From contig OX578145.1 in NCBI GenBank assembly GCA_951213105.1, forward strand, positions 6,375,191 through 6,439,190: DNA of 64,000 nt, in the 5' to 3' direction. Position 1 is the stretch's first letter. Every line of letters starts with the position of its first letter. The translations under genes and the position numbers were made by a program. This document shows positions 1 through 64,000 of this stretch, one piece after another. The notes under the pieces were generated by a model that saw only the letters and a program-made list of their open reading frames with translations, was not told the origin of the DNA and ran no database searches. Origin of the DNA: Amaurobius ferox. Its lineage: Eukaryota; Arthropoda; Arachnida; Araneae; Amaurobiidae.

Positions 1-128
1 TCTCGTATGTTAGAGAGGGGGTGGTATTCGATAAAATGTCCTTTTTCTATAGCTGTCTGAGTAGGTGGGGTCACGAATAAATCCAATTCGCTCTTGGTAC
101 AGGGTGAAGAATCTTTATGGATAGACAT
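1..128 (-). CDS. Polinton major-capsid-type protein (F54H12.2-like), N-terminus only
   Basis: An ATG at 128-126 opens a frame that runs off the left edge of the window after 42 residues. It contains KSELDLFVTPPTQTAIEKG and then HFIEYHPLSNI. This start is typical of the family annotated in many animals as 'uncharacterized transposon-derived protein F54H12.2-like', encoded by Polintons next to the penton-like gene and thought to be the double-jelly-roll major capsid protein. The gene begins three bases after the stop of the upstream virion-type gene, as expected for a compact viral gene block. The jelly-roll part lies outside the window, so the capsid role rests on family knowledge and gene order. 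The part seen is intact. Confidence 0.7.
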   Translation of the reverse strand, partial: MSIHKDSSPCTKSELDLFVTPPTQTAIEKGHFIEYHPLSNIR

Positions 129-130
129 CT

Positions 131-553
131 TTAGGAGAAAATATCTCGTGTTCTCGCTTTCTTTGCTGAAGTGGGAATGAAGTGATTCTCGGATCGCTTC
201 CTCTTTTTATTGCTTTTTCCAGAACCAATCATAGTCTTCATCTGGGTTGCAGCCTTGTCTGTTAAATTACGACCTGCTTCTTTCAAATGGCGCTTGGCTG
301 CCACTTTTAAATCTTCTCCTCTGGATACATCTCCCATCACATTGAGTCCACTCTGCCATATTTGCTTTCCCACGGCTTTGGCACCCGATTTTAGAATGGG
401 TACAGCCGCTCTAAAAAAGGAACGAAACAAACTTCCAAATCCATATCCTTTTTGAAATGCAGATCCTTGATAATAATCCAATCCATTACCGGTTTGCTGA
501 AGATAGTAGTCTTCAAAAGATTTCTGGCAACATTCATAAGGCACATACATCAT
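131..553 (-). CDS. Polinton small basic virion-type protein
   Basis: 140 residues starting with two successive ATGs that overlap the TGA of the penton-like gene (ATGATG at 553-548). Residues 35-75 are a Gly-rich, amphipathic stretch (GYGFGSLFRSFFRAAVPILK and on). The C-terminus is strongly basic, with a KKRKR nuclear-localisation-type run. Small proteins with this design sit between the penton and major capsid genes of Polintons and recall adenovirus core or membrane-lytic proteins (VI/X type). I infer a role inside the particle or in membrane penetration; no catalytic motif is visible. The frame is intact, although the neighbouring penton gene is broken. Confidence 0.6.
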   Translation of the reverse strand: MMYVPYECCQKSFEDYYLQQTGNGLDYYQGSAFQKGYGFGSLFRSFFRAAVPILKSGAKAVGKQIWQSGLNVMGDVSRGEDLKVAAKRHLKEAGRNLTDKAATQMKTMIGSGKSNKKRKRSENHFIPTSAKKARTRDIFS

Positions 554-1288
554 GAGAGATACTTTTGACGAAAGTGTAGCTTCACGTACGAGCGCCCGCG
601 TTCAAATGGCGTGAGTTCTCCTGTGTGCGTCCTTATAACGATTTCCAAAGTGTCAATCATCTTTCTACTCACAGGTAAATAGTGGGGGCGGTCGAATGTT
701 AGAGAAACCAATTCACCGTCGTTTCCGGCCACTTTCACTATGCGTAAAAGGGGTGCTAGTACATCTCCCACAATTTGGGGTTCCACAATGTCGGAATACA
801 CAAACAGTACATGATAATGAGCGTTCACATCTGCAACGTAGGGTCCTTCCACACTGGTTTCTAAATGAGAGTCCGATTCAATCACCATGGGATTAAAACC
901 CAGTACTTGGGCCATTCCTTTGTCTAAAATCACTCTTGCTTTGTTCTTTACTTTAATGCGTACTCGTTTCGTAACAGGATTATAATGAAAAGAGATCTTG
1001 TTTTGGTGGTCTTTGATGAAAATAGCTTTCAAAATGTCTGGGATGGTTTCGTAATATCCCGCTGGTATTCTACGTACAAGCATTTTACCATCTCCTAGAT
1101 CAAATCCAATAAAATTGTTCTCGGCAGTTATATTCATCCACGTATGGGGGTATAAAAACTCTAATTCCAATCTCCCAGCTTCCCTTTAGCTCTATAGGGG
1201 TGGGTAATCTCGTAATAAAATGTGAAATTTTATTCTCAGGAAAGTAGCTCATCGAGCTATCACTAGGAAGTGTCACGTAGAAACTCAT
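550..1288 (-). pseudogene. Polinton penton-like minor capsid protein gene, frameshifted
   Basis: Two overlapping minus-strand frames together match one protein. The first (ATG at 1288-1286) carries the family's characteristic opening, SFYVTLPSDSSMSYFPENK, and the conserved block up to GSWEIG. The continuation LEFLYPHTWMNI lies in another frame and runs to a TGA at 552-550. The frame changes between about 1160 and 1180, equivalent to one extra base. Genes starting this way are standard Polinton neighbours of the major capsid gene and are regarded as single-jelly-roll minor capsid (penton) proteins, usually about 240-270 aa, consistent with the length here. The frameshift may be decay or an assembly error; no slippery heptamer or stem was evident, so programmed shifting seems unlikely. 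Confidence 0.7.
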
Positions 1289-1325
1289 CGTATCAACTGA
1301 TTTCAGAAACAGACGTCCCTTGCTT

Positions 1326-2369
1326 TTATAGGGCGGATAAATCAGAGGCAGGTATCCACTGATTAAACTTGTGGGGATAACCTCGGTATTTTACAAAGTA
1401 TTCCATATTATTCTTCTTGAAACGTTTCTTTAACACTTTTTCAATGGGGAATTCCTCTTTCATTCTCACTTTTTGTAGTTCTTGCAGGTAAAAGGTACCT
1501 TGTATGGGTTCTCCTAGTAAATCTTGGATTCTGTATACAGCAGGTTCTCGTTTCACGCATTCTGTCACTTTAAATAATTCTTCTGACCAATTTGTTTCAT
1601 ACCCCTTCTCAAAGGTCATTTTAATCTTGGATACTCGCACAGTGTCCCCCGCATTTAAAATACATTTGGATACACCCTTAGGCAGGTTACCATAGAGCGT
1701 AAACCACACTTCTTGTTCATTGTCCGAATTCACATTCACAGGGGCTTTCTTAATGCTGGAGTGATAGGTATGATTATAGCTATCCATCAACGAGTCCAAT
1801 ACATCCAAATAGCGATAAGTATTCTGATTGGTAAAGTATTTCCACATTTTTGTCTTAAGGGTTCTGTTAAACCTCTCAACAACAGATGCTTTTGTGGTGT
1901 TAAACGTTGTAAAAAACCTGATATGATGTTCTTTAAGTAATTTTTGAAATTTCTGATTCTTAAATTCTGTACCTTGATCCGTCTGCAGAGATTTTGGAAT
2001 GCGCTCTTTAAATATAGTCTGAAAGGCGTTCACGATATCTACCCCTCTCTTGTGCTTCAGGGGTATAGCCCATGCATACTTGGATAAAATGTCAATGCAT
2101 GTTAAGATGTAGCGAAATCCATCATTCTGTCGGCTGAGCGTTGACATATCAGCTAAATCGGCTTGCCATTGCTGATCTATAGAATACACTATAACACGGT
2201 TGGTTTTAAATTTCCGCTGAACTGGCTTGTGTAATGTATAGGCATCCACACCTTGTAACCAATTCTGAATTTCCTTCTTGGGTACTTTTCCTTGAAGAGC
2301 ACGATATATGCTATCCACTCCACCGAAACTTGCGGGGTGCTTGGGGTCTTGATAGGTTCCGTCCATCAT
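1326..2369 (-). CDS. Polinton integrase with C-terminal chromodomain
   Basis: 347 aa, retroviral-type DDE integrase that inserts the linear element into host DNA in the nucleus. The N-terminal part (HPASFGGVDSIYRAL, WLQGVDAYTLHKP) is the conserved Polinton block preceding the catalytic core. The core has WQADLADM (D71), SLQTDQGTEF (D131) and VVERFNRTLK (E165), with 33 residues between the last two. The C-terminal 45 residues (IEKVLKKRFKKNN, YFVKYRGYPHKFNQWIP) form a chromodomain, which in related integrases binds histone tails and can bias target choice. All catalytic residues and the reading frame are intact. The ATG overlaps the stop of the upstream small membrane ORF (2368-2366). An intact integrase next to a broken capsid gene suggests a fairly recent insertion. 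Confidence 0.93.
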   Translation of the reverse strand: MMDGTYQDPKHPASFGGVDSIYRALQGKVPKKEIQNWLQGVDAYTLHKPVQRKFKTNRVIVYSIDQQWQADLADMSTLSRQNDGFRYILTCIDILSKYAWAIPLKHKRGVDIVNAFQTIFKERIPKSLQTDQGTEFKNQKFQKLLKEHHIRFFTTFNTTKASVVERFNRTLKTKMWKYFTNQNTYRYLDVLDSLMDSYNHTYHSSIKKAPVNVNSDNEQEVWFTLYGNLPKGVSKCILNAGDTVRVSKIKMTFEKGYETNWSEELFKVTECVKREPAVYRIQDLLGEPIQGTFYLQELQKVRMKEEFPIEKVLKKRFKKNNMEYFVKYRGYPHKFNQWIPASDLSAL

Positions 2370-2518
2370 TCCAACATGGAAATATTCACAGATTCGTTTA
2401 AATGCAGAATAAAATCCCTTGGTATATTTAAATCAATCAAAACTTCCGTTGTAATGTATACTATTAAAACAGTTATCAGATAGACACACGTCACAATAAC
2501 CTCCTCTCTCGAAGACAT
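2366..2518 (-). CDS. 50-aa putative membrane protein
   Basis: A short open frame from ATG 2518-2516 to TGA 2368-2366, ending inside the integrase start codon region, an ATGA-like overlap typical of compact viral gene blocks. After a short polar start (MSSREE), residues 7-29 form one hydrophobic segment, VIVTCVYLITVLIVYITTEV, long enough for a single membrane span. The tail has N-x-S sites near its end. I do not recognise a family. It lies 15 bases after the end of the GADD34-like gene. It could be a small viral membrane protein or a leader peptide that reduces integrase translation. Support comes only from position, overlap and the hydrophobic segment. Confidence 0.4.
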   Translation of the reverse strand: MSSREEVIVTCVYLITVLIVYITTEVLIDLNIPRDFILHLNESVNISMLE

Positions 2519-2532
2519 GACTTTAAATAAAC

Positions 2533-2697
2533 TTAATCGCTCTTCTCGCCTCTTTTATATACAGATTTAAAAATAACGCCAAATCTTAAAATTCGCTCTC
2601 TGAAACGCTGGGCGTCAATTTCCCAGAATCCCTTGCGATCTTCATCTTTGGGTACCTCTATAATGCATACCTCCTCACGAAATCTAACTCGCTTCAT
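2533..2697 (-). CDS. PPP1R15/GADD34-like eIF2-alpha phosphatase adaptor (minimal)
   Basis: 54 aa from ATG 2697-2695. The frame is open upstream to about 2763, but only from a GTG, so I choose the ATG. Residues 3-6, RVRF, are a perfect RVxF docking motif for protein phosphatase 1. They are followed by EEVCIIEVP and EDRKGFWEIDAQRFRERI (residues 19-36). This order (RVxF, acidic/Arg-rich stretch, Gly-x-Trp-Glu, Arg-Phe-x-x-Arg-Ile) is the signature of the PPP1R15 C-terminal domain shared by GADD34, CReP and viral adaptors such as herpesvirus ICP34.5 and the asfarvirus DP71L protein. Those proteins bring PP1 to phosphorylated eIF2-alpha and restart translation. Here almost nothing but the core is kept. 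It lies just upstream of the integrase block; host capture or viral inheritance are both possible. Confidence 0.7.
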   Translation of the reverse strand: MKRVRFREEVCIIEVPKDEDRKGFWEIDAQRFRERILRFGVIFKSVYKRGEKSD

Positions 2698-2749
2698 CCT
2701 GACCGACCTCTTTGAATCCCAAGACTCAAAGACCGGTTGAGGAAACACA

Positions 2750-2933
2750 CCCCTCCTATACACTCAATTCCCGAGATTCCCGAGATTCTCGAGATTCCCA
2801 TACACCCGATTCACGCGATCCTGCTACTCTAAAAACATCAATTCATGCGATTCTGCTACTTTAAAATACCAATTCACGCGATTCTGCTACTTTAAAACAC
2901 CAATTCATGCGATTCTGCTACTTTAAAAACGCG
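2750..2933 (-). promoter_or_regulatory. Upstream region with 10-bp and 31-bp tandem repeats
   Basis: On the minus strand this lies directly upstream of the GADD34-like gene. It has a TATA-like GTGTATAGG near 2755-2763, then about three copies of a 10-bp unit (CCGAGATTCC, 2769-2799), then four copies of a 31-bp unit (starts about 2809, 2840, 2871, 2902; core GCGATTCTGCTACTTTAAAA). Tandem short repeats just upstream of the outermost gene of a viral element suggest transcription-factor sites of an early promoter. That role is inference. Confidence 0.4.
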
Positions 2934-2953
2934 TTTTTGTTAGTTTTTTACAA

Positions 2954-3580
2954 GTAAAAAGTATGTTTTTGTGAAAAAACGTTAAAAAATAGCACAAGTG
3001 TGAAAACCTATGTTAATTTCCATAGAGAAAACGGCACAAGTGTGGTTTTTGAAAAGTAAAAAAATTACATTTGCGAAAAAATATAAGAAAAAAAACTTGC
3101 ATTTACGAAATTTTGTTAGTAAAAAGTATGTTTTTGTGAAAAAACGTTAAAAAATAGCACAAGTGTGAAAACCTATGTTAATTCCCATAGAGAAAACAGC
3201 ACAAGTGCGGTTTTTGAAAAGTAAAAAACTTACATTTGCGAAAAAATATAAGAAAAAAACTTGCATTTACGAAATTTTGTTAGTAAAAAGTATGTTTTTG
3301 TGAAAAAACGTTAAAAAATAGCACAAGTGTGAAAACCTATGTTAATTCCCATAGAGAAAACAGCACAAGTGTGGTTTTTTAAAAGTAAAAAATTTACATT
3401 TGCCAAAAAATATAAGAAAAAAACTTGCATTTACGAAATTTTGTTAGTAAAAAGTATGTTTTTGTGAAAAAACGTTAAAAAATAGCACAAGTGCGAAAAC
3501 CTATGTTAATTTCCATAGAGAAAACGGCACAAGTGTGGTTTTTGAAAAGTAAAAAACTTACATTTTTAAAAAAGAAAAAA
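2954..3580. repeat. 164-bp tandem repeat, about 3.8 copies
   Basis: GTAAAAAGTATG recurs at 2954, 3119, 3283 and 3447 (periods 165, 164, 164). Each unit holds AATAGCACAAGTG, ACCTATGTTAATT and CAAATGTAA-type blocks with few differences. It sits between the outermost Polinton gene and the terminal region. Similar GCAAATGT/TTTTTACT wording in inverted orientation recurs in 47530-48060. Confidence 0.9.
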
Positions 3581-3599
3581 AAAAAAATGCGAATATTTC

Positions 3600-4265
3600 A
3601 TACTTAGTCGCTTCATTTAGAAAAAAAAAAAAATTCCCAACTATCAGAAAAATCCCAATTTTAATTCTCCTTTCTACCGCTAGGGGGCGCTGATGGTTCC
3701 ATACCGCCTTCGCAGGTGTTGCCACCCTGAAAAAAGTTTCTACCCCACAGGTGTTACTATGGTAACCGAAACAGAAAATATTTCTAAGTTCTATCCCCGA
3801 TAGTTCCAATTTTCATCGCTAGGAGGCGGTTATGGTTCCATACCGCCACCGACGGTGTTGCCATCCCCCAAAAAAGTTTCTCTCCCACAGGTGTTGCTAT
3901 GGCAACCCAAACAGAAAAATATTTCTAAGTTCCGATTTTAATTCCGCTTAATTCCGCTTTTCGCCGTTAGGAGGCGCTGAGCATCGCTGAGCCTCTGTTG
4001 GTGTTGCCACCCTCAAAAAAGTTTCTTCTATACTTAGAAAAAATCTCATTCCAAAAAATTTATTTCCCCCTCAACCCCTCGTACAAGACTACGACATCGT
4101 TGCCACCCGACAAAAAGTTTCTCCAAAATTTTTACCCCCACTTTTTCTCATTTACCCCCCCCTTTACACCCCCGTCCAGGATTACGGAATTCAAGATGGC
4201 GGCCATTTTGCTCAGCGCTGAGCATTGCTGAGCCTCCCGTGCAGAACGCCCCTATTCTTACTACT
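3600..4265. repeat. Polinton terminal region: about 143-bp units with X-box and CTCF-like motifs
   Basis: Three to four degenerate units follow one another. Each combines a CTCF-like site (CCGCTAGGGGGCGCT at 3677-3691; weaker at 3817 and 3963), GTGTTGCCACCC, GAAAAAAGTTTCT, and in two units an RFX/X-box palindrome (3753-3766 and 3893-3906), then AATATTTCTAAGTT. The last part, 4110-4265 (GATTACGGAATTCAAGATGG), is homologous to the inverted ends at 45710-45815 and 50170-50264. Confidence 0.75.
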
Positions 4266-17300: not shown

Positions 17301-19405
17301 TGCAAGACTCTAAAGAGACAGAACTTAATGCAAGAACCTAATGCAAGACTCTAAAGAGACAGAACTTAATGCAAGAACCTAATGCAAGACTCTAAAGAGA
17401 CAGAACTTAATGCAAGAACCTAATGCAAGACTCTAAAGAGACAGAACTTAATGCAAGAACCTAATGCAAGACTCTAAAGAGACAGAACTTAATGCAAGAA
17501 CCTAATGCAAGACTCTAAAGAGACAGAACTTAATGCAAGAACCTAATGCAAGACTCTAAAGAGACAGAACTTAATGCAAGAACCTAATGCAAGACTCTAA
17601 AGAGACAGAACTTAATGCAAGAACCTAATGCAAGACTCTAAAGAGACAGAACTTAATGCAAGAACCTAATGCAAGACTCTAAAGAGACAGAACTTAATGC
17701 AAGAACCTAATGCAAGACTCTAAAGAGACAGAACTTAATGCAAGAACCTAATGCAAGACTCTAAAGAGACAGAACTTAATGCAAGAACCTAATGCAAGAC
17801 TCTAAAGAGACAGAACTTAATGCAAGAACCTAATGCAAGACTCTAAAGAGACAGAACTTAATGCAAGAACCTAATGCAAGACTCTAAAGAGACAGAACTT
17901 AATGCAAGAACCTAATGCAAGACTCTAAAGAGACAGAACTTAATGCAAGAACCTAATGCAAGACTCTAAAGAGACAGAACTTAATGCAAGAACCTAATGC
18001 AAGACTCTAAAGAGACAGAACTTAATGCAAGAACCTAATGCAAGACTCTAAAGAGACAGAACTTAATGCAAGAACCTAATGCAAGACTCTAAAGAGACAG
18101 AACTTAATGCAAGAACCTAATGCAAGACTCTAAAGAGACAGAACTTAATGCAAGAACCTAATGCAAGACTCTAAAGAGACAGAACTTAATGCAAGAACCT
18201 AATGCAAGACTCTAAAGAGACAGAACTTAATGCAAGAACCTAATGCAAGACTCTAAAGAGACAGAACTTAATGCAAGAACCTAATGCAAGACTCTAAAGA
18301 GACAGAACTTAATGCAAGAACCTAATGCAAGACTCTAAAGAGACAGAACTTAATGCAAGAACCTAATGCAAGACTCTAAAGAGACAGAACTTAATGCAAG
18401 AACCTAATGCAAGACTCTAAAGAGACAGAACTTAATGCAAGAACCTAATGCAAGACTCTAAAGAGACAGAACTTAATGCAAGAACCTAATGCAAGACTCT
18501 AAAGAGACAGAACTTAATGCAAGAACCTAATGCAAGACTCTAAAGAGACAGAACTTAATGCAAGAACCTAATGCAAGACTCTAAAGAGACAGAACTTAAT
18601 GCAAGAACCTAATGCAAGACTCTAAAGAGACAGAACTTAATGCAAGAACCTAATGCAAGACTCTAAAGAGACAGAACTTAATGCAAGAACCTAATGCAAG
18701 ACTCTAAAGAGACAGAACTTAATGCAAGAACCTAATGCAAGACTCTAAAGAGACAGAACTTAATGCAAGAACCTAATGCAAGACTCTAAAGAGACAGAAC
18801 TTAATGCAAGTACCTAATGCAAGACTCTAAAGAGACAGAACTTAATGCAAGAACCTAATGCAAGACTCTAAAGAGACAGAACTTAATGCAAGAACCTAAT
18901 GCAAGACTCTAAAGAGACAGAACTTAATGCAAGAACCTAATGCAAGACTCTAAAGAGACAGAACTTAATGCAAGAACCTAATGCAAGACTCTAAAGAGAC
19001 AGAACTTAATGCAAGAACCTAATGCAAGACTCTAAAGAGACAGAACTTAATGCAAGAACCTAATGCAAGACTCTAAAGAGACAGAACTTAATGCAAGAAC
19101 CTAATGCAAGACTCTAAAGAGACAGAACTTAATGCAAGAACCTAATGCAAGACTCTAAAGAGACAGAACTTAATGCAAGAACCTAATGCAAGACTCTAAA
19201 GAGACAGAACTTAATGCAAGAACCTAATGCAAGACTCTAAAGAGACAGAACTTAATGCAAGAACCTAATGCAAGACTCTAAAGAGACAGAACTTAATGCA
19301 AGAACCTAATGCAAGACTCTAAAGAGACAGAACTTAATGCAAGAACCTAATGCAAGACTCTAAAGAGACAGAACCTAATGCGAGACCTTAAAGAGATAGA
19401 ACCAA
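14396..19405. repeat. 41-bp satellite array, about 121 copies
   Basis: A perfectly regular 41-bp period runs for 5 kb: the CAGAAC word is at 14408, 14449 and so on to 19369 (121 steps). The monomer is three parts: acttaatgcaaga (13), acctaatgcaaga (13), ctctaaagagacaga (15), so the first two are themselves a duplication. I noticed only one internal change (A to T at 18811). Both ends break down over about one unit; the right edge reads CCTAATGCGAGACC, then AAAGAGATAGAACC. Since 41 is not a multiple of three, it has no long frame. Confidence 0.98.
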
Positions 19406-32997: not shown

Positions 32998-34607
32998 TGC
33001 AAAACATCAGCACTTGTTGCCAGTAAAAGAAATCAAAATACAAAATTCATTCAAATATAATTTACCAATTGGTAGAACTATTTACAATTACAATGAAGTT
33101 TCCAAGACATTAAACTCCGATGACCTTACATCATGTGCATGCAGCAATAAAAATCTTGCCCCTTATGTCAACTCCTCTCATGGACACATTATTACTGGGG
33201 ATCTCAGTATAGTTCAGGATGATATACTTAGGGATATTATGAATAAAGGGTCTAAATTTCGCATTCCATTCTGCCATCACCCTAAACAACTTCTTCAGTC
33301 TATATCTTTTGATTTTGATAAATTCATATATCAACTTGCTTGTTCACATTCCATTCCTATTGAAGCATTCCATCTATGGAAGTATACTACCTTACATCTA
33401 CTTAAAAATGTTATATATTATAAACATTAAATTAACGAAGCCTAGGTATCTTTATAAACAACTCCTATCTGCTATTAAAGAACTACAACAACATTTTGTC
33501 ATAACTTATGTAGATAAAGCTTCCAATAATTATGCCATCATTTGTAAAAAATATTATGTTTCTCTGTTACAGAATTACTTAAAAAGTAATCACATTTTTA
33601 AACCCATTAATAATCAGTCTATCAAAATCAAAACTAAAATGCTAAAATTATATACACAATTAAATATTAATTTTAAGTTTTTTAAATTTCCTTATGTTAC
33701 TTTGGTTCCTAAATTCCATAAATCACCTCTCAGTTTTAGAACGGTCACTTGTGGACATACCTTTACCACTACAGCTAGTAAGTTTTTGCTTAACTGTTTA
33801 AATAGAATTAATGAATCTCTTAAATTTAGGAATTCAGGATATTTCATTTTAAACAATAGTTTTGATTTAGTAAATCACTTTAGCAAGCCTCCACACATTC
33901 TTGGTTTCCATACCTTTGATTTTAAAGACCTATTTAATAATATTGTCATTAACGATTTATATAAAGTTATTATCTCTCTTTATCATGACTATCTATCTTC
34001 CAATAATGTTGCATTTAATGTCAAAAACTTTCCTATGCTCTTGCACTTTGTGTTATACAACAATTATATTATCCAAGGTGATAACATTTATTTACAAACA
34101 TCTGGTGTACCACAAGGTGGCTGTAGTAGTAGTATACTCGCTAACTTACATCTTTATTATCATGAATGTCATTTTAACTCTAATTCATATATTATATATA
34201 GATATGTTGACAACTTAATTTGTATTATCATTGATGATTCCGAACCAATTAATATTGATTTTTACCCATCTAACCTAGAATTAATTCCTAATGAGCTTAG
34301 CGTTAGTCAAACTGTAAACTTTTTAGACCTAAATATAGATACCCTCCATAATCATGTAATCACCAATCTATATGATAAAAAAGATTCTTACAACTTCACT
34401 ATCATAAAGTTGCTATCATACCAATCTTGTAATTCTATTCAATTGTTTAGAAACATCATTTTAAACCAGCTATTTCGAATACATCGACTTTCTGATCCTC
34501 GGTTTCACTTTCTCCACATCAATAATCTTAAAAGCATTTGTCAAAATTACCAATATCCGGAAGTATTTGTAAATAATATTATTAATAATTTCAAATATAC
34601 CACGTAA
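32998..34607 (+). pseudogene. Penelope-like-type reverse transcriptase, copy 1, 5'-truncated and frameshifted
   Basis: Two plus-strand frames give one RT. The first (to 33430) starts in a (CA)n run and carries FKYNLPIGRTIYNYNEV and SHGHIITGDLSIV. The second (about 33415-34607) carries TYVDKASNNYAIICKKYYV, PKFHKSPLSFRTV, FDFKDLFNNI, GVPQGGCSSSILANLHLYYH (RT motif B), RYVDNLICI (motif C) and VNFLDLNID, then NLYDKKDSYNFTIIK. These blocks match a widespread invertebrate RT family that I assign tentatively to Penelope-like elements. No GIY-YIG endonuclease was found. The second catalytic Asp of motif C is Asn (YVDN for YVDD), so this copy is dead. It shares its layout with copy 2 on the opposite strand. 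Confidence 0.7.
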
Positions 34608-36160: not shown

Positions 36161-38251
36161 TAGTCGCCATAATTGAGAAAGTTGGCCTGGATGTTATCGA
36201 TGGGTAGTTGATACACTGAGTTGATCATTTTAATTACGAAATTAGGAGGATACGCATTATTAATCGCTGCATTTAATAATTCTATAAAATGTGCTCATTT
36301 AAAATGGTCATCACAAATTTTATGGATTCTAAGAATCTGATTTGATATAATATTTCTAAACACTGAAATATGCAAACAAGAGTCAAAGTGTAGAATTTTA
36401 GATGGATTAAAATTCTGTCTTTTATCATATAAGTTTATAGCCAGATGACAGTTGGTAAATCTAAATTCAAATCTAAAAAGTTTGCTACATTCGAGTTATT
36501 ATTACTTGCATTTAATTGTAAATTATTAGGATAAAAGTTAAATACTATAGGATTATTATTATGGGATACACATAATATATCATCTAAATATCTATACATG
36601 TGCATATTATGAAACCCTGGATTAATGTTCTTTTCATAGAAGAATAAATACAGATTGGCCAATAATGGTGAGGCACACCTCCCTTGTGGGATGCCAAACT
36701 GTTGCTTAAAGAAAGAACCACCATGTTGAATCTAATTCTCATAGAGAGTGAAATTAAGTCATTTTTTAAAAGGAAAAGTTGAGTATTTTAGGGTGATATT
36801 ATATTTTTCAAAAATTTCTAAAATAATTCTATACAGATCATCTATATCAATATTATTGAACAAATACTTGAAATCAAAAGTATAAATACTATAAGTAAGA
36901 GTTTTTAATTTCTTAACTCACTGAAAGCTGTTTTTCACGATATGATAATTATTTGAGATGTTATCTGACACGGAAACTTCATTTAAAATTTTTAATAAAA
37001 ATTTACCAACATCAATAATATAAGAATTATGCCCACTTTGGTTCAAAAAGCTACAGGGTATTTATAAAACTAAAACAAGATATGGAATTTTATTACAACT
37101 ATTTTTTAGATGGATTTGCTTATATTTGGCTGAGATTTTAAAGTCAGTGTTATGTAAATTATAGATTGAATTATTAAGTAAGTGTGACTGGAGGGTACTT
37201 ATATAGTAATATTTACAAATGATTGAGTAGTTACTACTAGCCTTATCGACATAAGTAATAACAAAATCATTTTGAATTTCTTTAAAATCCTTTTTTGTAA
37301 TTGAATTAAGTTTATATGATTTATTAATTTGCTGAATATAGTTATTTAAGTATTGCTCTATTAAGAAGCCCCAGGGTTTGAAGGTTTCTACAGGAATTTG
37401 ATATTTGTAGTTGATTTTATAGATAAACTTATTTCAGTCAAGAATTAAATCTTTACCAATTAATTTATGTTTAAATTTAGTAGGTAAACGGTACTTAGTA
37501 CCCAGTAACATCAGTGATCTCAGTGCATCACTATTAATAATATTTAGTTTTCCCGTTATAATATGCCCATGGTGTTTATCTAGGTAATCTAATAGACAGT
37601 GGTCATTCATCCAGTTCATAATTTTTATTAATATCTATTGATTTGGCTATTTGATTATAATTGAAAATATAACGTCCTAGCGGTTTATCATATTTAAATG
37701 CAATTTTGGAATTGACATGTTTGACTGGAAAGAAAGTGGAAACCGATTTTAAAAAATTATTTATCTTCAGATTATTTATAACTGGATGAGTGAAATTCAG
37801 GGTACAATATTCGTTTATTTTAGTATATTGTTTTGATTCGTCGTTTAGATTTAAGTCAGTGACGTATAAATAAACATTAAGAATTTTACTTCTGGTAATA
37901 AGCAAATCATAGAATAAATGCTTAAAATGAATATTATCAAATGCAGTAGTAATAGAAGGGTTATAAACCAAATTTAATTGTTTTTTAATTGCTAAAATCC
38001 AGTTCTTATAGTGTTTCCACTCAAAAGTAATTTTGAAAATTTACATGTTGCTGCAGGATGGTATTTTTTAGATCAGATAATGAGGGCACATTTTTATTAT
38101 ATTTACTTGCTCTTTTAGTTCTTTTTGATTTATTGTTAGAAATGTTAAAGAAATTATATACATTAAGGTCATCATGAGGATATTTAAAGGATTTTTTAAG
38201 AATGCTATGATGATTGATTGAGTCCATATGGAAATAGTTTTGTGTGCACAT
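36160..38251 (-). pseudogene. Penelope-like-type reverse transcriptase, copy 2, multiply frameshifted
   Basis: Minus-strand relic, longer at the 5' side than copy 1. In order: a basic N-terminal part (KRTKRASKYNKN, 38021-38251), PVKHVNSKIAFKYDKPLGRY (37603-37971), HHGHIITGKLNII (37434-37619), a degraded palm region, then FGIPQGRCASPLLANLYLF near 36680 and RYLDDILCV with FLDLNLD (36435-36662). Motif C here keeps both aspartates. Frames change at least three times and stops are frequent. It faces copy 1 tail to tail, and both copies have a CA/TG run at their 5' side. Confidence 0.72.
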
Positions 38252-56022: not shown

Positions 56023-56754
56023 ATGGATTAACATCTTCTCGAGCTACATGATTGCCGATTCCAACGCTACTTAAGCTCAATATGATTGAGAAACATTTCA
56101 AATTTAATACTTTATAAATAAATAAGTTATTTCACATTAATATAAAAGAATAAACTTACCTGTTATAAGATGTTTATCACACATTAAATTTTCAAGGATA
56201 TGAGAACTTCCATTTTGAAGTTGTCATATTATCAGATCTTTCCTGAAATCTCTTCTTCACGTCTTTCCGATTTTAATATTAATATTACCAGGTTTTCCTG
56301 TTGGGGAATACAGGAGATTCTAAAAAAAGAAACAGAATCTCTACCACCTCGACTACCCCCTCCCAAACAGCACATATTTATAAACTTGTCCTTCCAATCT
56401 CACGCTTTTCTTACAAAATCAAATGGATCCAGTCAAAGAATGATCACGGGGTGTCCTACAAACGGTTTTGAAGCAGACGATAAAGAACGTGTGACGTCAT
56501 GTTGTAAAGCTCTATAGAAGAAAAATAAAACTATGGGAAAAGGACCCAATGAAATTAAAAAAGAAGAGAGGGTTGCAGTTTGGAACACAATTTTCATTTA
56601 TGACTAGATTGTAAAACAATGCATGTTATAGGATTCCGGGTGGTGAACCCACTGCGTCCTTGTGATGGCAGAAGGACGTCAAGGCCAGTTGGCTTTCTTT
56701 GAGGGCGAATGAAGCAGGTATAAGAGTAGAAGAGAAATGACAGTTGAGCCTCCG

Positions 56755-56970
56755 CAGGAGGTGCTGGGGTGCTGCACCCCCTGCCTCTTTTGGGAGGATG
56801 CCTCTTTGGGAGGATGCCTCTTAGAGGGTCTTGAGACCCCCAGGAGGATCCTCTTTGGAGTGTCTTCCCTCTTTTGAGAGGAAGCTCCTCTCAGAGGGTC
56901 TTGAGACCCCCAGGAGGGAGGATGCCTCTCTTGAGAGGATCCTCTTTGGGAGGATGCCCCCCTCCCCTCT
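56755..56970. repeat. Degenerate CCTCTTTTGGGAGGATG minisatellite
   Basis: 17-25-bp purine/pyrimidine-skewed units, with a palindromic GAGGGTCTTGAGACCCCCAG at 56824 and 56896. On the minus strand it gives open frames of SSQKRE-like repeats, which I regard as a by-product. Confidence 0.65.
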
Positions 56971-57254
56971 TTTGGAAGTTTGGTGAGGCGATGCAGCACC
57001 GGATGCCTCTTTCCTAGTATTGCGAAAGTCTTTCACAGAGGCATGATGACTCATACGGAGTGAGTTTCACTCGGAGTCTTGAGAGGGAGTGTCACAATCG
57101 CTGACTGACCCTTGACCTGAGGAAGTGGTTTCAAGGGATTTCGCAATCACATAATCTGGAAATGACGTGTCGCGCCTTGGAGCTCCTTAGCACACGTCTT
57201 CCCTCTCTGCTGTCTGGAAATAAAGTGAAAGATCTTATCAGCGTGACGTAGTTA

Positions 57255-57420
57255 AAGCGCCCTCTGGCGAATTTTGATGAAGTGCTGCCATCTATCGGCA
57301 TTTTTTTTCCAAAAGAAATTAATGTTTCACTGGTCAGGAGCTGGATTCGAACTTGGGCCCAACTGATTAGAAGCCGCGCGTCTTACCATCGTGCCAAAGC
57401 ACCCGTGCTTTATAAGAAGT
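57255..57420 (-). repeat. tRNA-derived SINE-like sequence (tRNA-Arg-TCT type)
   Basis: On the minus strand, 57413 to about 57343 resembles a tRNA: A-box-like TGGCACGATGGTAAGACG, anticodon loop GGCTTCTAATC (TCT), B-box-like AGTTCGAATCC. The T-stem and acceptor stem do not pair, so it is not a working tRNA. The following tail GTGCTGCCATCTATCGGCA recurs at 21875, which fits a SINE. Confidence 0.6.
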
Positions 57421-57559
57421 TATCTTCGAAGTGTACCTTATCAGCGGAAGCTAGATTATTTTTCAAAGTTCATTCGAATCGCTCGGTGAATAGCGATGCA
57501 AGGGTGCGTTTTAAAACAGAATGCTACGGAGTGAATATAAATCTGTGTATTATAACAGT

Positions 57560-58765
57560 ATGATTTTTTTTTTAAAACAAATGTATACACAAACTTTAAA
57601 AACATGAATGTAATACATAGCTGAAATTATGTTTTGTGAATAGGATTCGACCCTTTATGTGTTGTGTATCTAAAAACAAATGTATACACAAACTTTAAAA
57701 ACATGAATGTAATACATAGCTGAAATTATGTTTTGTGAACAGGATTCGACCATTCTAAGTGTGTGTGTGATTTTTTTAAAATAAATCTAACTATCAATAC
57801 GATTTTTATAATAATAACGAAATGATTTCGAATGTTTAAAAACAAATTGATTACGGATTTTCAATGAACACACAAATTGTGTTCAGTGAATAGGATTCAA
57901 CCATTCTGAGTGTTGTGTATCTAAAAACAAATGTATACACAAACTTTAAAAACACGAATGTAATAATTAGCTAAAATTGTGTTCAGTGGACACGAAACTT
58001 GTATTCAGTGAATAGGATTCGACCATTCTAAGTGTGTGTGTGATTTTTTTTTTAAAATAAATCTAACTATCAATACGATTTTTATAATAACAACGAAATG
58101 ATTTCGAATGTTTAAAAACAAATTGATTACGGATTTCTAATGAAAACACACAAATTGTGTTCAGTGAATACCATTCGACCATTTTAAGTGTTGTGTATCT
58201 AAAAACAAATGTATACACAAACTTTAAAAACATGAATGTAATACATAGCTGAAATTATGTTTTGTGAACAGGATTCGACCATTCTAAGTGTGTGTGTGAT
58301 TTTTTTAAAATAAATCTAACTATCAATACGATTTTTATAATAATAACGAAATGATTTCGAATGTTTAAAAACAAATTGATTACGGATTTTCAATGAACAC
58401 ACAAATTGTGTTCAGTGAATAGGATTCAACCATTCTGAGTGTTGTGTATCTAAAAACAAATGTATACACAAACTTTAAAAACACGAATGTAATAATTAGC
58501 TAAAATTGTGTTCAGTGGACACGAAACTTGTATTCAGTGAATAGGATTCGACCATTCTAAGTGTGTGTGTGATTTTTTTTTAAAATAAATCTAACTATCA
58601 ATACGATTTTTATAATAACAACGAAATGATTTCGAATGTTTAAAAACAAATTGATTACGGATTTCAAATGAACACATAAAAATTGTGTTCAGTGGACACA
58701 CAAATTGTGTTCAATGAATAGCATTCAACCCTTTGTGTGTTGTGTATCTAAAAATTAATGTATTA
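57560..58765. repeat. Higher-order tandem repeat (529-549 bp made of 251/278-bp halves)
   Basis: GTTGTGTATCTAAAAA occurs at 57661, 57912, 58190, 58441 and 58739, giving steps of 251, 278, 251 and 298. Odd and even units differ consistently (ACATAGCTGAAATTATGTTT versus AATTAGCTAAAATTGTGTTC), so pairs were duplicated together. The word GTTCAGTGAATAGGATTC recurs throughout. Confidence 0.9.
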
Positions 58766-59127
58766 CTACATTGTACTTAGGCATTTTCAAAAATGGTGCG
58801 ACAAGCTACTCACAATCTGAAAAGAAAGTTTTCACTAGAAAATATATGTTATTTCGAACTGTTACATATATACTAATATTTAATTAACTGCATTAAATAA
58901 TACACATAATTAGTTAAAATTGCAATGGCGACCCAAAGATTGAGAATATATGTAAATAAAACACATCAGAGAAGTAGATATGAATTATGTTCGAAAATAA
59001 AACTATTCAAATTCTAGCCATTTCTAGAACCTCATCGAATGTTCCAGCTTATCGGAAATCATGTGCTTTTGACTTTTCGGAGGACGCTGTTTGTTTAGCA
59101 CAAAGCAAAGGTCCCCTCCGAAAAGGG

Positions 59128-59134
59128 TATAAAA
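59128..59134 (+). promoter_or_regulatory. TATA box of the spliced mini-gene
   Basis: GGGTATAAAATGCGG: a strong TATA box, 82 bases before the ATG at 59216, leaving room for a start site near the GGTCAACT at 59156-59163. Confidence 0.55.
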
Positions 59135-59215
59135 TGCGGTTCTTATCGAGCTATGGTCAACTGCTCTTTCTTTTAGATTACAGCAAGTAATTATCACCGA
59201 AACTATTTTGATAAG

Positions 59216-59846
59216 ATGTCTTCATCCCGTGCATTTGAAGTAAGTAAAATTTTGATTTTCATTATTTTATGATTTATTATATATGACATTTTATGATTTA
59301 TTATATATGACGATTAGCACTTGAATTTTATATTAATTATTTTTTTTATGGATTTTCAGTTCGACTTCGGCATCCCAGTTGAGGAGATGGATTTAATTTG
59401 TGCAAACAATTCCACGACCAAAGACGATATAAATCAGGTGAGTTATTTTAATAATTTTTTTAATTGAAAAATGTATTTGTTTTAATTTTACGCATTTGTG
59501 AAAATATTGTTCAATACAGTTTGAAATTAAACACAACAATTGAATTAAACCATGAAAAATATAAACATTTACGCTCCATCTGAGCGAAGCCACCGCTGAC
59601 TTTATTAAAACATTTAATAACACCCACACACATATTTTTTAATGTTTCACATATTGAACCATTCAGTTTAATTGTACTTTGAAAAATATAACGTTATTTC
59701 CATCGGAGTGGAATCATTTTTTTTTTTTTTTTTTAATGATAGATTTGTGTGGGCTTCTAAAAATTATACCTTTCAACTATAATTTTTTTTTTATATCAAC
59801 ATTTTAGTATGTGGTTTTAATAACACTTTTAAATTTAAATAAATAA
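59216..59846 (+). CDS. Spliced mini-gene, about 46 aa, unknown function
   Basis: Predicted exons: 59216-59239 (ATG to GAA, then GTAAGT), 59360-59437 (after TTTTCAG, ending CAG before GTGAGT) and 59808-59846 (after CATTTTAG, ending TAA). All three join in one frame. The second exon reads FDFGIPVEEMDLICANNS and TTKDDINQ, an acidic peptide I do not recognise. The third exon is hydrophobic and its stop overlaps an AATAAA (59839-59844), so this exon is the weakest. Strong consensus donors and a TATA box upstream argue for a real transcript. It converges on the 3' end of the AlkB-PC4 gene. Confidence 0.4.
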
Positions 59847-59969
59847 TGAGTTTAACACATAACTTAAAATAAAACTAAGAATGAAGCAACCTTTAAAGAA
59901 AAAACATTTTTAATGAAAGCTGTGTAATACATAGATTTTTACAAAAGTAATATTCTACTAACTTGTATT

Positions 59970-61472
59970 TCACATATGGAACAGCGCAATCATCGCTGTA
60001 TAATAGTCCTTTGCGGTGAGACTTTTAAAAAATTCAGGTGAAACATTGTTTTCATTTGTTTCACAAAACTCTCGCGCAATTTCTTGAATGTTTATCATTA
60101 AAAGTTCGTGATCGACTAGTTCATAATCCACAAATTGCATATGAGTGGATAGCGTGCAGCACTTGTGTTTCAAATCGGTACACCCGTGACTTTTGCATGT
60201 TTCGCGTTGATATAATTTATACAACTCTCCACATAAATTTTTATGTACACACTGCATTAAAGTGTGTTTTAATTCATAGGGTAGCAAAGTCGGTAGTGCT
60301 TCGACAGGTTTTTGATACTTCACAATACAATTGGGTAGGATATTTGTCAGTAACTGATCCAAAACACAATTAGTAACATCTTGACTAATGTACTGAAGAG
60401 TATGAAAATTATCCTGATTTAATAAGATTAATTTCTTTTTGAACTGTCCACTGCAAGGTGGTAATTGTTGTAAATATAGATTGCTTTCACACACACAAAC
60501 TAAGAGTTCGTTATTAATTGTGAAAGATGAATTTTCACTGTCCATATTTGAAATGCGTTTTAAAAATACACTCCATGTATTAGGCGTGAGTGTTACTCCA
60601 TGAGGGGTAGGCACGATAACATCAGAAGCATTCATCCTGTAGACACGAAAGTGTACTTTCACATTTCCTCGAAAATGTTGCACGGTAACGTAAATGTTAC
60701 AGCCCAAATGGTAACGGAACTTTTCAGATGAGGATAATTCTATCGAAACCGATCCACTTTGAGAAGTAGCATAGTTCAGAGCCGACGACACCAAATCACT
60801 TTGCGAATCTGTAGTAGATATAGATGGAGTATGCATATGGCTCCAATCGATTTCAGGTATAGGCGAAAGCGCTGCAGGCGGGACATACATTGGAAACTCG
60901 CACTTGCGTTTCTGTACAGGCGTTTTAGGTAGAATTTTTCTAAATGTTAGACTTATTCTAGCTTCTGAGACTTCGGGTTCCGCAGCAATTCCATGAGAAT
61001 AGAATTTGTTGGTTGGTGATTGCATCGCATAAAGCGATCCGTGTTGGAGTGGAATACTTAGAGGAGATTGTCCTTTTCTTTCGAAAATGATGGATCTCGT
61101 AGCACCGAAACTGAGAGCCGCTATAGGTGTTTTAGAGCATAGGGAGGATTCATTGTCCTTGTGTTGTCCTATTTTAGCATGTCCATCCACATAGTGGTTT
61201 ACTAACACAAAATTGTAGCTGTATCCCATATGTTCTTCCACACGTGATTTTATCTCCGATAAGAGAGGTGTCCATCCCTCAGAGCTGTTTCCACCGTCTC
61301 CAAATGCATATGCTTTTTGAGCTGGTTGGTATGGATGACCATGCACCACCCCTTGTGATTGTTGAAAGGGCAGACTTTTCAACTCTTGAAAAATTAAATC
61401 GGCTACATTTACCGAATAAAATTCGCGAACATATTCTACATTCAACTTCTCGCGTTTAAAAAAGATAGACAT
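59970..61472 (-). CDS. AlkB-type dioxygenase fused to a PC4-like ssDNA-binding domain
   Basis: 500 aa, intact. Residues 1-180 are an AlkB-family 2-oxoglutarate/Fe(II) dioxygenase, which removes alkyl groups from DNA or RNA bases: NHYVDGHAKIGQHKDNE gives the HxD pair (H104, D106), the distal His is in NKFYSHGI (H160), and ARISLTFR gives both arginines (R172, R178) that hold 2-oxoglutarate. SFGATRSIIFE and LQHGSLYAMQ are also typical. After a Ser-rich linker, residues 248-312 resemble the PC4/Sub1 single-strand DNA-binding fold: FRYHLGCNIYVTVQHFRGNV, VHFRVYRM, VPTPHGVTLTPNTW. The C-terminus has a Cys/His cluster (C426, H429, C431, H436, C438, C439) of zinc-site appearance. It is divergent from the polymerase gene and shares its promoter region. 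A possible ATTAAA polyadenylation signal lies at 59913-59908. The AlkB call is secure; the PC4 call is by motif pattern. Confidence 0.85.
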   Translation of the reverse strand: MSIFFKREKLNVEYVREFYSVNVADLIFQELKSLPFQQSQGVVHGHPYQPAQKAYAFGDGGNSSEGWTPLLSEIKSRVEEHMGYSYNFVLVNHYVDGHAKIGQHKDNESSLCSKTPIAALSFGATRSIIFERKGQSPLSIPLQHGSLYAMQSPTNKFYSHGIAAEPEVSEARISLTFRKILPKTPVQKRKCEFPMYVPPAALSPIPEIDWSHMHTPSISTTDSQSDLVSSALNYATSQSGSVSIELSSSEKFRYHLGCNIYVTVQHFRGNVKVHFRVYRMNASDVIVPTPHGVTLTPNTWSVFLKRISNMDSENSSFTINNELLVCVCESNLYLQQLPPCSGQFKKKLILLNQDNFHTLQYISQDVTNCVLDQLLTNILPNCIVKYQKPVEALPTLLPYELKHTLMQCVHKNLCGELYKLYQRETCKSHGCTDLKHKCCTLSTHMQFVDYELVDHELLMINIQEIAREFCETNENNVSPEFFKSLTAKDYYTAMIALFHM

Positions 61473-61539
61473 TTTTAAAAATAAGCAACGACAACCTTCT
61501 AGGAGAACAAACGTTGAATGAATGAGCTCTTATCTAAAT

Positions 61540-61780
61540 AATATCCCTTATCGTAACATGTCACGTGATATTTCTTATCATATCACATGACACATCATAT
61601 CTGTAAATCACATGATATTTCTTATCGCATCATGTCACATGATATTCCTTATCGTATCACGTGATGTATCACGTGACATCTTGTTAGCGAATCACATGCT
61701 TCCACGTATGGAATCACGTGACATCTTGTTAGCGAATCACAAGGTTCCACGTATGGAATCACGTGACAAGCCAGATAAGG
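61540..61780. promoter_or_regulatory. Divergent promoter region with 45-bp repeats and CACGTG boxes
   Basis: Between two divergent ATGs (61472 and 61897). Palindromic TCACGTGA boxes have CACGTG at 61562, 61658, 61670, 61715 and 61760; the last three are exactly 45 bp apart in a tandem repeat (ACATCTTGTTAGCGAATCAC, TTCCACGTATGGA). Weaker variants (ATCACATGAT) lie between. TCACGTGAC is the core bound by MITF/TFE and USF-type bHLH-zip factors. No clear TATA box was seen on either side. Confidence 0.7.
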
Positions 61781-61896
61781 TTTCCGCCCACTATACATGC
61801 TACGTGGAGCTCACTTTGACTCGAGACTTGCACTAGGAAAGACGTCCTTTTAATTTGCTCCTCTCTATTAAAATATCGACAAACGAATTTACCACA

Positions 61897-64000
61897 ATGA
61901 TGGTTGTTTCAAAAGTGAGTTCAAAATGTTTTCGAATTAAAAATAAAGATACATTCTTAAAAATTCATAACACAAGAACTTTTAAAATGTACAACACAAA
62001 AATTAGCTTCATACACATTTCACTCTTTTACATGTTCTGTGTTTTTAATATTTAGGATATGACTGTGGAAGCTTCTGTTACACCCCTTGAGAAAGTTAAT
62101 GTACTGCCTGTGGCAGCACCCCTTGTGGAAGCCAATGCAGCACCGACCGTGGTGGGAGAGGCCGGACCTAGTGGAGTTCATGTAAGTTATTTTATTTCAT
62201 CTTTTGGTGGAGATAGGGAAAATCGGCTGTTTTGGGGAGTATAGGATTGTATCGTATATATTTCGCATTTCAGAATTTTAAAAATAATCAGCTGATTCAA
62301 TATCTACCTCATTTTTAGATTGCATTTAGATAGTTAGGTGTTTGAAGCAGACGCTAATATTGGAGTTTTGTCTGTTTTACAGATGTGTCCCACCTGCCAC
62401 AAAGTCTTCACTGCGAAGCGTAGTTTAACACGCCATATGAAAATTCACAGTGAAGAAGATTCTTTTTCTTGTGACATCTGTGAAAAGGCATTTTCGAGGA
62501 AGGATCATTTGTACAGGCATTCCAAAACCCACACCAATTCTAAGTCACTCCAATGCAACATTTGTAATAAAACGTTCACGAGGGAAGATAATTTAAACGC
62601 ACACAGGAAAATACACGTACAGATAAAGACATATCCCTGTTCCCTTTGCGAGAGCACGTTTACGAGAAAGGGGGACCTAGCACACCATGTGCGAATTATG
62701 CATAAAACTCCTGCCCCTGTTGGATTGAAACGCAAGATCACTGATGTGGCTTCCGCTTCTAGGAAGCTTGTAAAACGTAGTAATAGGGCTTTGGGGGTTT
62801 TCTTACCAGAAACATTGGAACCCTCCGAAGAAAATTGCCACGATTTACTACTATCCCTGGAAGAAATGAAGCCGCATATGGAAAATCTTATCCTGACAGA
62901 GTTGAATACGCGCCAAATTAAATGGTATGCCGTTCTAAATGTCAGGATGAGCCGAATTAATTCTGATGGGGAGGAGGAGTTTGCTACACCGCATTTTCGC
63001 ACAAAGTGCGCAATATCACTACAAGAGTTTAACGTAGAGGAGCATGTGAAACAAGGCATTCAAAAAATTTTGAATTCTGTGGAAGACTTTCACCAGCTCG
63101 GATCCGGATGGACCTTGGATCGAGTATTGAATATGGATGTCTACATCGGGTCCTATCGTCCATTGCGTCCGTCCAGCTTCATTCCGCTACCTCCCAAAAT
63201 AATGGCAAAGAAGGCAGTTCTGAACATACAGAACGAAGACCAAAAGTGCTTCGTGTGGTGTCTCATCGCACATTGGAAGAATTTAGACTCTTCTAACAAT
63301 CCTAATCGCGTGAGTCACTACTTGCCATTTGAAGGGGAGGTGAATCTGGGAAACGTGGAGTGTCCAGTGGCAGTGTGCAAGATCCCAATTCTCGAGAGGC
63401 TGAATGATTGTCGCATTAATGTGTTCGGATATGAAAAGGGGGAAGTTTTCCCCCTCCAAATATCTGAGCGGGAGGATTCCGACGTTGTTAATTTACTTTT
63501 AATCAGCGACGGGGTCCAACAACATTATTGCCTTATACGCAATTTTTCACGCCTTCTCGGGGATGTGTCAGCTCATGATGGAGAAAGTTACACATGCTAC
63601 CGATGTCTCCATAGATTCTGCAGGGAAGATCTTCTCCAGAAGCATACACCTTTTTGCAAAGAGCATGCTCCTCAGCGGGTTTCGATGCCAAGTCCTGACA
63701 AAAGTCTTTTAAAGTTTAATATGGAGCACTACCAGCATCCCGTACCGTTTGTATTGTATGCAGATTTCGAAGCGCTTCTGGTGAAGCTAAACAGTAGTGA
63801 ACCCTCTCGTGAGAATGCCTTTACAGAGAAGATGGCTGTTCACGAACCCTGTGGATATGCTTACGTAGTGATCGATCCGCAGGGTAAGTGCCTCAAAGAC
63901 CCCAAGGTGTACCGAGGCACTGAAGCAGTCATTAACTTTATAGAAGATGTCTTGCGAGAGAAGGATGAATTGATCCCCAAGATCAAGGCCAACAGGCCGA
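61897..64000 (+). CDS. DNA polymerase B (protein-primed, Polinton type) with four C2H2 zinc fingers, 5' part
   Basis: Three predicted exons join in frame: 61897-61914, 62056-62181 and 62383 to the window edge, with introns bounded by AAA|GTGAGT..TTTAG|GAT and CAT|GTAAGT..TTACAG|ATG. Exon 3 stays open for 539 codons. It begins with four C2H2 fingers (CPTCHKVF, CDICEKAF, CNICNKTF, CSLCESTF; each with a His pair). Then come blocks typical of Polinton polymerases: GWTLDRVLNMDVYIGSYRPL, SSFIPLPPKIMAKKAV, VNLLLIS, a further Cys/His motif (CYRCLHRFC) and PFVLYADFEAL, the exonuclease I motif (D-x-E). Exo II/III and the palm motifs lie beyond the edge. Exon 3 also starts with ATG, so translation could begin there. 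It copies the element's linear DNA; the fingers may target its ends. Confidence 0.88.

Follow-up and report, generated by a model that had tools for sequence, protein, structure and literature searches.

An AlkB–PC4 fusion gene in Polinton-class elements of the spider Amaurobius ferox, a candidate accessory replication factor

Protein-primed replication of the adenovirus type needs a single-strand-binding protein, and to our knowledge none has been assigned to Polintons. A literature search with Polinton and single-strand-binding terms gave a sole match, on prokaryotic viruses, among the best 12 of 809, which is no proof of absence. Vertebrate Mavericks (Polintons) hold a polymerase module and a capsid/integrase module in one element (excerpts of PMC8097293), and adintoviruses are defined by a family-B DNA polymerase (PolB) with an N-terminal OTU-like domain together with an integrase bearing a chromodomain (excerpts of PMC11071296). 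Neither AlkB nor PC4 is mentioned in the excerpts of these two papers or of PMC11071308. Bidnaviruses and Vesanto-type viruses have a PolB of Polinton origin and divide their genes among genome segments (excerpts of PMC4061559 and PMC8363768). Here we describe a gene that joins an AlkB dioxygenase to a PC4/Sub1-like domain in a 64,000-nucleotide stretch (the window, C14:6375191-6439190) of the 3.56-Gb, 276-contig genome of the spider Amaurobius ferox. We consider it an evenly balanced proposition that its product is an accessory replication factor of Polinton-class elements, made of an ALKBH2-type DNA dioxygenase and a PC4-type single-strand-binding module, and that two element types carrying it, P and C, share proteins in trans. 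Literature searches returned no description of a Polinton with this architecture, as a first-pass annotation of the window had supposed. Nothing joined PC4 and Polinton, papers on AlkB and Polinton were unrelated to such a gene as judged by titles and abstract starts, and among the best 20 of 35 papers pairing any two of AlkB, adintovirus, Maverick, polintovirus and PC4-like, AlkB occurs in a chromatin review only.

The gene and its parts are as follows.

59970..61472, minus strand: AlkB–PC4–Cys/His gene, 500 amino acids, intact frame
60930..61472, minus strand: AlkB (ALKBH2-type) domain, residues 1-181, lacking the nine-residue substrate loop
60537..60722, minus strand: PC4/Sub1-like domain, residues 251-312, Pfam and profile match
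59973..60536, minus strand: C-terminal region, residues 313-500, a predicted second ββββ-alpha unit followed by a helical Cys/His-cluster region

Pfam identified 2OG-FeII_Oxy_2 (E 1.3e-20); its PC4 match, spanning residues 256-305, scored 29.2 bits against a cut-off of 25. The PDB sequence matches were ALKBH2 (2.3e-24), ALKBH3 (3.2e-17) and PC4 (about 2e-5), and the PC4 block matched 6ycs/1pcf by profile at 1.2e-11 to 2.6e-11. The Cys/His cluster consists of C426, H429, C431, H436, C438, C439 and H444. All parts that the first-pass annotation had read in one intact frame (AlkB, PC4 and a terminal Cys/His cluster) were found, and its placing of PC4 near residues 248-312 was upheld by the profile searches. 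The complete AlkB active site that it had reported holds for the iron and 2-oxoglutarate (2OG) residues but not for the nine-residue substrate loop, missing in the window subfamily. H104, D106, H160, R172 and R178, the HxD...H iron site and two 2OG arginines, are kept in 8/8 aligned AlkB frames. A structure model built on three sequences has the ββββ-alpha strand order at residues 251-308, with a predicted local distance difference test score (pLDDT) of 65-85 in this block; scores for the whole model were modest, a pLDDT of 64.6 and a predicted template modelling score of 0.47. No PC4 or Whirly chain appeared in the 50 rows shown of the fold comparisons, but since both lists were taken up by the AlkB half, this does not count as evidence that they are absent. 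Profile and fold comparisons place the AlkB domain closer to ALKBH2/3 than to ALKBH5/FTO.

Two related proteins (P0001 and P0002) match the window protein over 96-98% of length at 31% identity (BLASTP), and because of the extent of this match the fusion is not due to chance. By Pfam, PC4 is sub-threshold in P0001 (20 bits) and was undetected in P0002, and both AlkB and PC4 are above cut-offs in 4/6 further AlkB frames of the same genome. AlkB only was found at L031, where the frame ends ahead of a PC4-like stretch lying in the next frame, and at L002, a host-like ALKBH. On these matches the gene is a true AlkB–PC4 fusion in a virus-like element with a predicted B-family polymerase. The PC4 and Cys/His half also exists as a stand-alone gene, beside AlkB in element C and without AlkB in a third family, F. 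The C protein aligns to window residues 211-347 (26-30%), and those of F and of an array on C23 align to residues 255-488 (22-23%). Because the stand-alone frames align with the window protein and retain the Cys/His cluster, the window gene looks like an AlkB joined onto a Polinton PC4-type gene. Of 1816 candidates, none was related to the stand-alone PC4 protein at E<=0.001. In the C23 array (C23:16052565-16211421) the stand-alone PC4 genes are often about 13.8 kb apart and penton-like frames adjoin the two PC4 genes read there; it is perhaps a tandem array of another Polinton.

The window gene lies in a P element with the following features (strand given where assigned).

56719..56724: target-site duplication (TSD) TATAAG, found before 56725 and after C14:6444666
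56725..64000: left part of the P element, whose full 12,752 bp extend to C14:6444666; 5' terminus AGTAGAAGAG
56725..58869: left terminal inverted repeat containing tandem repeats, best segments matching L014 5567-3852 inverted at 84-99%
59216..59437, plus strand: possible small spliced gene, an ATG then two GT/AG-type junctions read by eye, behind TATA and TTCTAGAA-type elements
61473..61896: divergent promoter region in which (A)TCACGTGA blocks recur
61897-61914 and 62056-62181, plus strand: two putative PolB 5' exons, open and in frame with 62383, splicing presumed
62383..64000, plus strand: PolB, part of a 1291-residue open frame continuing past the window, with four C2H2 fingers and exonuclease and polymerase motifs

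The inverted counterpart of 56725-58869 sits just beyond the window, and the ends of the element read AGTAGAAGAG...CTTCTACT, with AGTAG termini. A second P copy (C23:8412869-8425929, 13,061 bp) has the TSD GACCAT on both sides, and inverted repeats, AGT-type termini and a 6-bp TSD are common to the two. AlkB–PC4 and PolB were the only genes matched by tblastn in these two copies; C- and F-type queries for integrase, capsid, protease and ATPase genes found none between their terminal inverted repeats. Between AlkB–PC4 and PolB, TCACGTGA-type palindromes repeat at 61547-61768 in a region partly conserved with other PolB subfamilies. The motifs of PolB were read by eye as DFEALL, NLKNYD and YVKTD, which we take to be those of the exonuclease, and DANNLYG, KLMNNAVYG and DTDS, presumably those of the polymerase. 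The family-B assignment rests on these six readable motifs, with protein priming surmised rather than read from them. Pfam found an endonuclease VII-like insert in PolB (4.7e-6) and detected no OTU-like domain. Elsewhere in the element, 59010-59440 holds heat-shock-like elements of the TTCTAGAA type and a TATA box upstream of the possible small spliced gene.

To examine the distribution of the gene, the best 150 of 444 AlkB candidates, 111 of 10781 integrase candidates and 150 of 1914 PC4 candidates were scored, and three PolB searches (best 80 of 9340, 59 of 8314 and 80 of 9127) gave 163 distinct places. Copy numbers are lower bounds, and the window's own AlkB copy falls below the 150 scored. 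The integrase list is confined to copies with at least 80% likeness to that of the window, and the PolB lists to P-type polymerases, other families being covered by direct tblastn scan only; the neighbour counts that follow are among the matches listed. By open-frame class the AlkB places comprise 54 of about 368 residues, 22 of about 535, 18 of about 519 (the window's class) and 56 fragments or others. PolB lies within 20 kb in 14/18 of the 519 class, 12/22 of the 535 class, 11/56 of the others and 0/54 of the 368 class. All 37 such pairs are in opposite, divergent orientation, 33 of them within 6 kb. Conversely, integrase lies within 15 kb of 48/54 copies of the 368 class and of none in the 535 (0/22) and 519 (0/18) classes. 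None of the 111 integrases is within 15 kb of any of the 163 PolB places, and the second-nearest integrase–PolB pair is the window itself, at 61 kb. Fourteen of the 40 copies in the 519 and 535 classes have no PolB within 20 kb, which is unexplained or due to the partial PolB lists. Frames of at least 1280 amino acids were present in 38/80 scored PolB copies, and 89/113 integrase match rows had no inner stop.

AlkB–PC4 is a mobile gene present in many copies rather than a host gene. The first-pass annotation had looked to ordinary host orthologues outside any PolB context as the contrary sign; many copies do lack a PolB neighbour, yet 48/54 in the 368 class adjoin integrase rather than host genes. 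In one P copy the AlkB gene is 97.8% identical to the window's and the promoter region is also alike, while its PolB is only 54-55% identical. A near-identical AlkB gene beside a divergent PolB suggests that the AlkB cassette has been exchanged between PolB lineages. At L025 and L017 the AlkB–PC4 genes are 93-98% alike and the PolBs merely 45-55% identical to the window's, and at L017 AlkB and PolB stretches each occur twice, as a tandem duplication would give. Inverted AlkB gene pairs a few kb apart were seen at L028, at C19:78601444 and 78608362, and at C17:28463156 and 28464164; no PolB was near the L028 and C19 pairs among the matches listed. Host-like ALKBH candidate exons occur outside the elements at L002 and L004, which we take to be ALKBH1-like and ALKBH2-like, respectively. 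The AlkB tree is poorly resolved (2/12 inner branches well supported), so that an origin of element AlkB from host ALKBH2 is undecidable from it. Four scans of viral contigs (AlkB single and aligned, PolB N-terminal part and PolB core) found no PolB relative and one AlkB locus, a 204-residue frame too short for the fusion.

The other end of the window is occupied by part of a C element, with complementary gene content.

1..4265, minus strand: right end of the C element, which spans C14:6363791 to window position 4265; TSD GCCGAC; terminus ...TTACTACT
1326..2432, minus strand: integrase with C-terminal chromodomain (Pfam: rve 2.3e-12, Chromo 1.3e-9)
550..1185, minus strand: penton-like minor capsid protein, no Pfam match, 47% to its family F counterpart
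131..601, minus strand: pX-like minor virion protein, no Pfam match

This copy, 15,665 bp long, appears to carry an insertion close to its left end, and its ends read AGTAGT...ACTACT. Past the window edge it carries a major capsid protein, a protease (Peptidase_C5, weak, E 0.02), a packaging ATPase (Pox_A32, Adeno_IVa2), then a 368-residue AlkB–PC4 frame and a 340-residue stand-alone PC4 frame. Integrase, major and minor capsid proteins, protease, ATPase, terminal inverted repeat and TSD are thus all present in C; the capsid proteins, which have no profile match, are named from gene order and presumed features, and the names penton-like and pX-like are likewise our assumption. A second C copy on C1 measures 12,190 bp with TACGCG on both sides, and its two ends differ in their first bases (AGTAGATGAG vs AGTAGTAAAA). 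Degraded fragments of other PolB families lie just outside its repeat (L035). Queries of the P and F type found no PolB in the pieces read of the two C copies. The AlkB–PC4 proteins of C and P share 37-38% identity over residues 3-337.

A PC4 match on C3 led to family F, which has PolB in exon-like pieces, capsid genes, protease, ATPase, integrase and stand-alone PC4, and whose major capsid protein and integrase are 57% and 53% identical to those of C. It was read over 14 kb. No AlkB was matched in these 14 kb, the AlkB–PC4 query aligning solely through its PC4 and Cys/His part. Among the three families, a small number, AlkB is therefore in P and C, each short of half the Polinton gene set, and was not matched in the 14 kb of F, which has the full set. 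The direct test of complementary gene content was the tblastn scan, and the complementary sets were found on separate elements in two copies each of P and C. The virus-like element of the first-pass annotation is borne out in that the fusion recurs beside a divergent PolB, but that reading missed the lack of integrase and capsid genes in P, the second AlkB–PC4 family in C, and the stand-alone PC4 and Cys/His genes.

Since the scans found C without a polymerase and P without integrase or capsid genes, each element probably relies on proteins of the other in trans. A tentative and rather doubtful extension is a bipartite Polinton, in which P (about 12.8-13.1 kb, with a protein-primed polymerase and AlkB–PC4) and C (about 12.2 kb, with capsid, protease, ATPase, integrase, AlkB–PC4 and PC4) would supply each other and the shared AlkB–PC4 would be their own single-stranded-DNA-binding and alkylation-repair factor. 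Literature searches for a bipartite or segmented Polinton returned no paper on such an element, judged by titles. The idea is not far-fetched, because segmented PolB viruses exist (excerpts of PMC8363768).

As an accessory replication factor, AlkB–PC4 would act through both halves. The PC4 and C-terminal half would coat single strands exposed by the strand-displacing, protein-primed polymerase, and, in copies with an intact substrate loop, the AlkB half would reverse lesions of the 1-methyladenine/3-methylcytosine type on the coated strands. The loop reads SYEFSGNS-like (SYxFSG) in relatives, and the copies read of the 368, 527, 531 and 535 classes retain it whole. The nine residues are lacking in the window subfamily, whose iron and 2OG ligands are kept in 3/3 aligned loop-less full-length copies. 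The lost tyrosine is presumably the counterpart of ALKBH2 Tyr122, as counted from the ALKBH2 alignment with His171 taken as the first iron ligand. Tyr122 of ALKBH2 is a substrate contact. Because this part of the loop is lost, the window copy may bind yet not demethylate normally, and the window subfamily protein probably works mainly as a single-strand-binding factor. The ratio of nonsynonymous to synonymous substitution rates (dN/dS) was calculated with our own Nei–Gojobori script for five pairs among the 519, 527, 531 and 535 classes. Values were 0.16-0.28 for AlkB, 0.14-0.30 for the linker, 0.10-0.21 for PC4 and 0.19-0.31 for the C-terminal part, and the gene is under constraint between frame classes. 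Comparison with the C-element copies was saturated.

Several points weigh against a replication and repair factor shared in trans. The first-pass annotation had placed the gene beside a protein-primed-type polymerase; divergent B-family motifs do adjoin it, but Pfam, PHROGs and PDB sequence searches did not recognise PolB as a polymerase, finding zinc fingers and the endonuclease VII-like insert only. Loss of the substrate loop is common to 6/6 distinct places of the window subfamily in the loci read, window included, and argues against normal AlkB catalysis in the window copy. Within this subfamily changes are too few to judge constraint (AlkB dN/dS 0.28 and 0.45 on 4 and 8 changes). The structure model is of modest quality as well. 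That PolB or integrase would serve in trans we infer from gene content only. Repair of alkylated, displaced strands, which the first-pass annotation had proposed, is plausible, and single-strand binding and dealkylation are likewise activities that we propose from sequence.

Four other explanations were weighed. The chance capture of an ordinary host ALKBH2 beside a transposon deserves next to no credence. Host-like ALKBH genes do exist elsewhere (L002, L004), but at least 150 scored copies of 444 candidates, fixed positions in elements bounded by TSDs, recurrent PolB or integrase neighbours and PC4 fusion in distant families rule it out. A stronger contender, only a little short of an even chance, is that P and C are unrelated degenerate Polinton derivatives which lost genes independently, captured AlkB–PC4 separately and are mobilised by full elements such as F. 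The full gene set of F is present in the same genome, a share of the 519 and 535 copies has no PolB among the matches listed, and blastn between the compared parts of C and P found no shared repeat longer than the AGTAG start of their termini. Independent degeneration is harder to reconcile with the long intact PolB and integrase frames in many copies, with the lack of AlkB in the 14 kb of F, and with the alignment of C and P AlkB–PC4 proteins over residues 3-337.

The remaining two concern function. The AlkB half could be a structural or DNA-clamping remnant in what is simply the elements' single-strand-binding protein. The loop loss in the window subfamily and the stand-alone PC4 and Cys/His genes of F and C favour this, but the retained iron and 2OG ligands, the intact loop of the other classes and the low dN/dS across classes make it improbable. 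Counter-silencing, in which AlkB would remove methyl groups added by the host (N6-methyladenine or N6-methyladenosine (m6A), or 3-methylcytosine) and PC4 would serve as transcription coactivator or tether, is also unlikely, if slightly less so. 3-Methylcytosine is a by-product left by DNA methyltransferases, and PC4 is also a transcription cofactor, as the names of its database matches indicate. In orchids, a gypsy lineage took up an AlkB with m6A RNA demethylase activity in vitro (abstract of PMC9289625). However, an ancestry near ALKBH2/3 speaks for DNA repair rather than for an RNA eraser, so that an m6A-type eraser by ancestry is not favoured, and the divergent link to PolB suggests replication.

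Elsewhere in the window, a 41-bp tandem repeat occupies 5 kb (14401-19385, about 122 copies at 99% match) with a strong A over T skew on one strand. Long frames at 33243-34607 (plus strand) and 37062-38040 (minus strand) resemble Penelope-like reverse transcriptases, by eye only.

Occurring by itself in C and F and joined to AlkB in P and C, the PC4-type gene offers a concrete candidate for the single-strand-binding protein of Polintons. If C and P are interdependent, a Polinton genome can be divided in two. That would connect Polintons with segmented PolB viruses and offer a testable route for the uptake of host DNA-repair enzymes by viruses.

Compared with described systems, C resembles Polintons/Mavericks and adintoviruses in its rve integrase with chromodomain, adenovirus-type protease (a weak match), packaging ATPase, capsid genes, AGT-repeat termini, inverted repeats and 6-bp TSD. 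F matches that gene set by homology and adds PolB, and P has the putative B-family polymerase and the same type of termini. Unlike in Polintons/Mavericks, PolB and capsid/integrase are split over two elements and AlkB–PC4 is in both. With respect to adintoviruses, the C integrase has the chromodomain, and the OTU-like domain was not detected by Pfam in the P-element PolB. The AlkB half is like the repair dioxygenases ALKBH2 and ALKBH3 in fold and in iron and 2OG residues, but is fused to a PC4 and Cys/His region and, in the window subfamily, lacks the Tyr122 loop. The PC4 block is like the PC4/Sub1 coactivator by Pfam and by its profile match to 6ycs/1pcf, but lies within a larger protein with a second predicted ββββ-alpha unit and a helical Cys/His region. 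The orchid Ty3/Gypsy lineage is likewise a mobile element that took up an AlkB dioxygenase, but it is a retrotransposon with an enzyme of the RNA demethylase type, and its abstract does not mention PC4 (PMC9289625). Unlike the parvovirus-like bidnaviruses and Vesanto-type viruses, both halves here are integrated Polinton-class elements, one of them with Polinton capsid genes.
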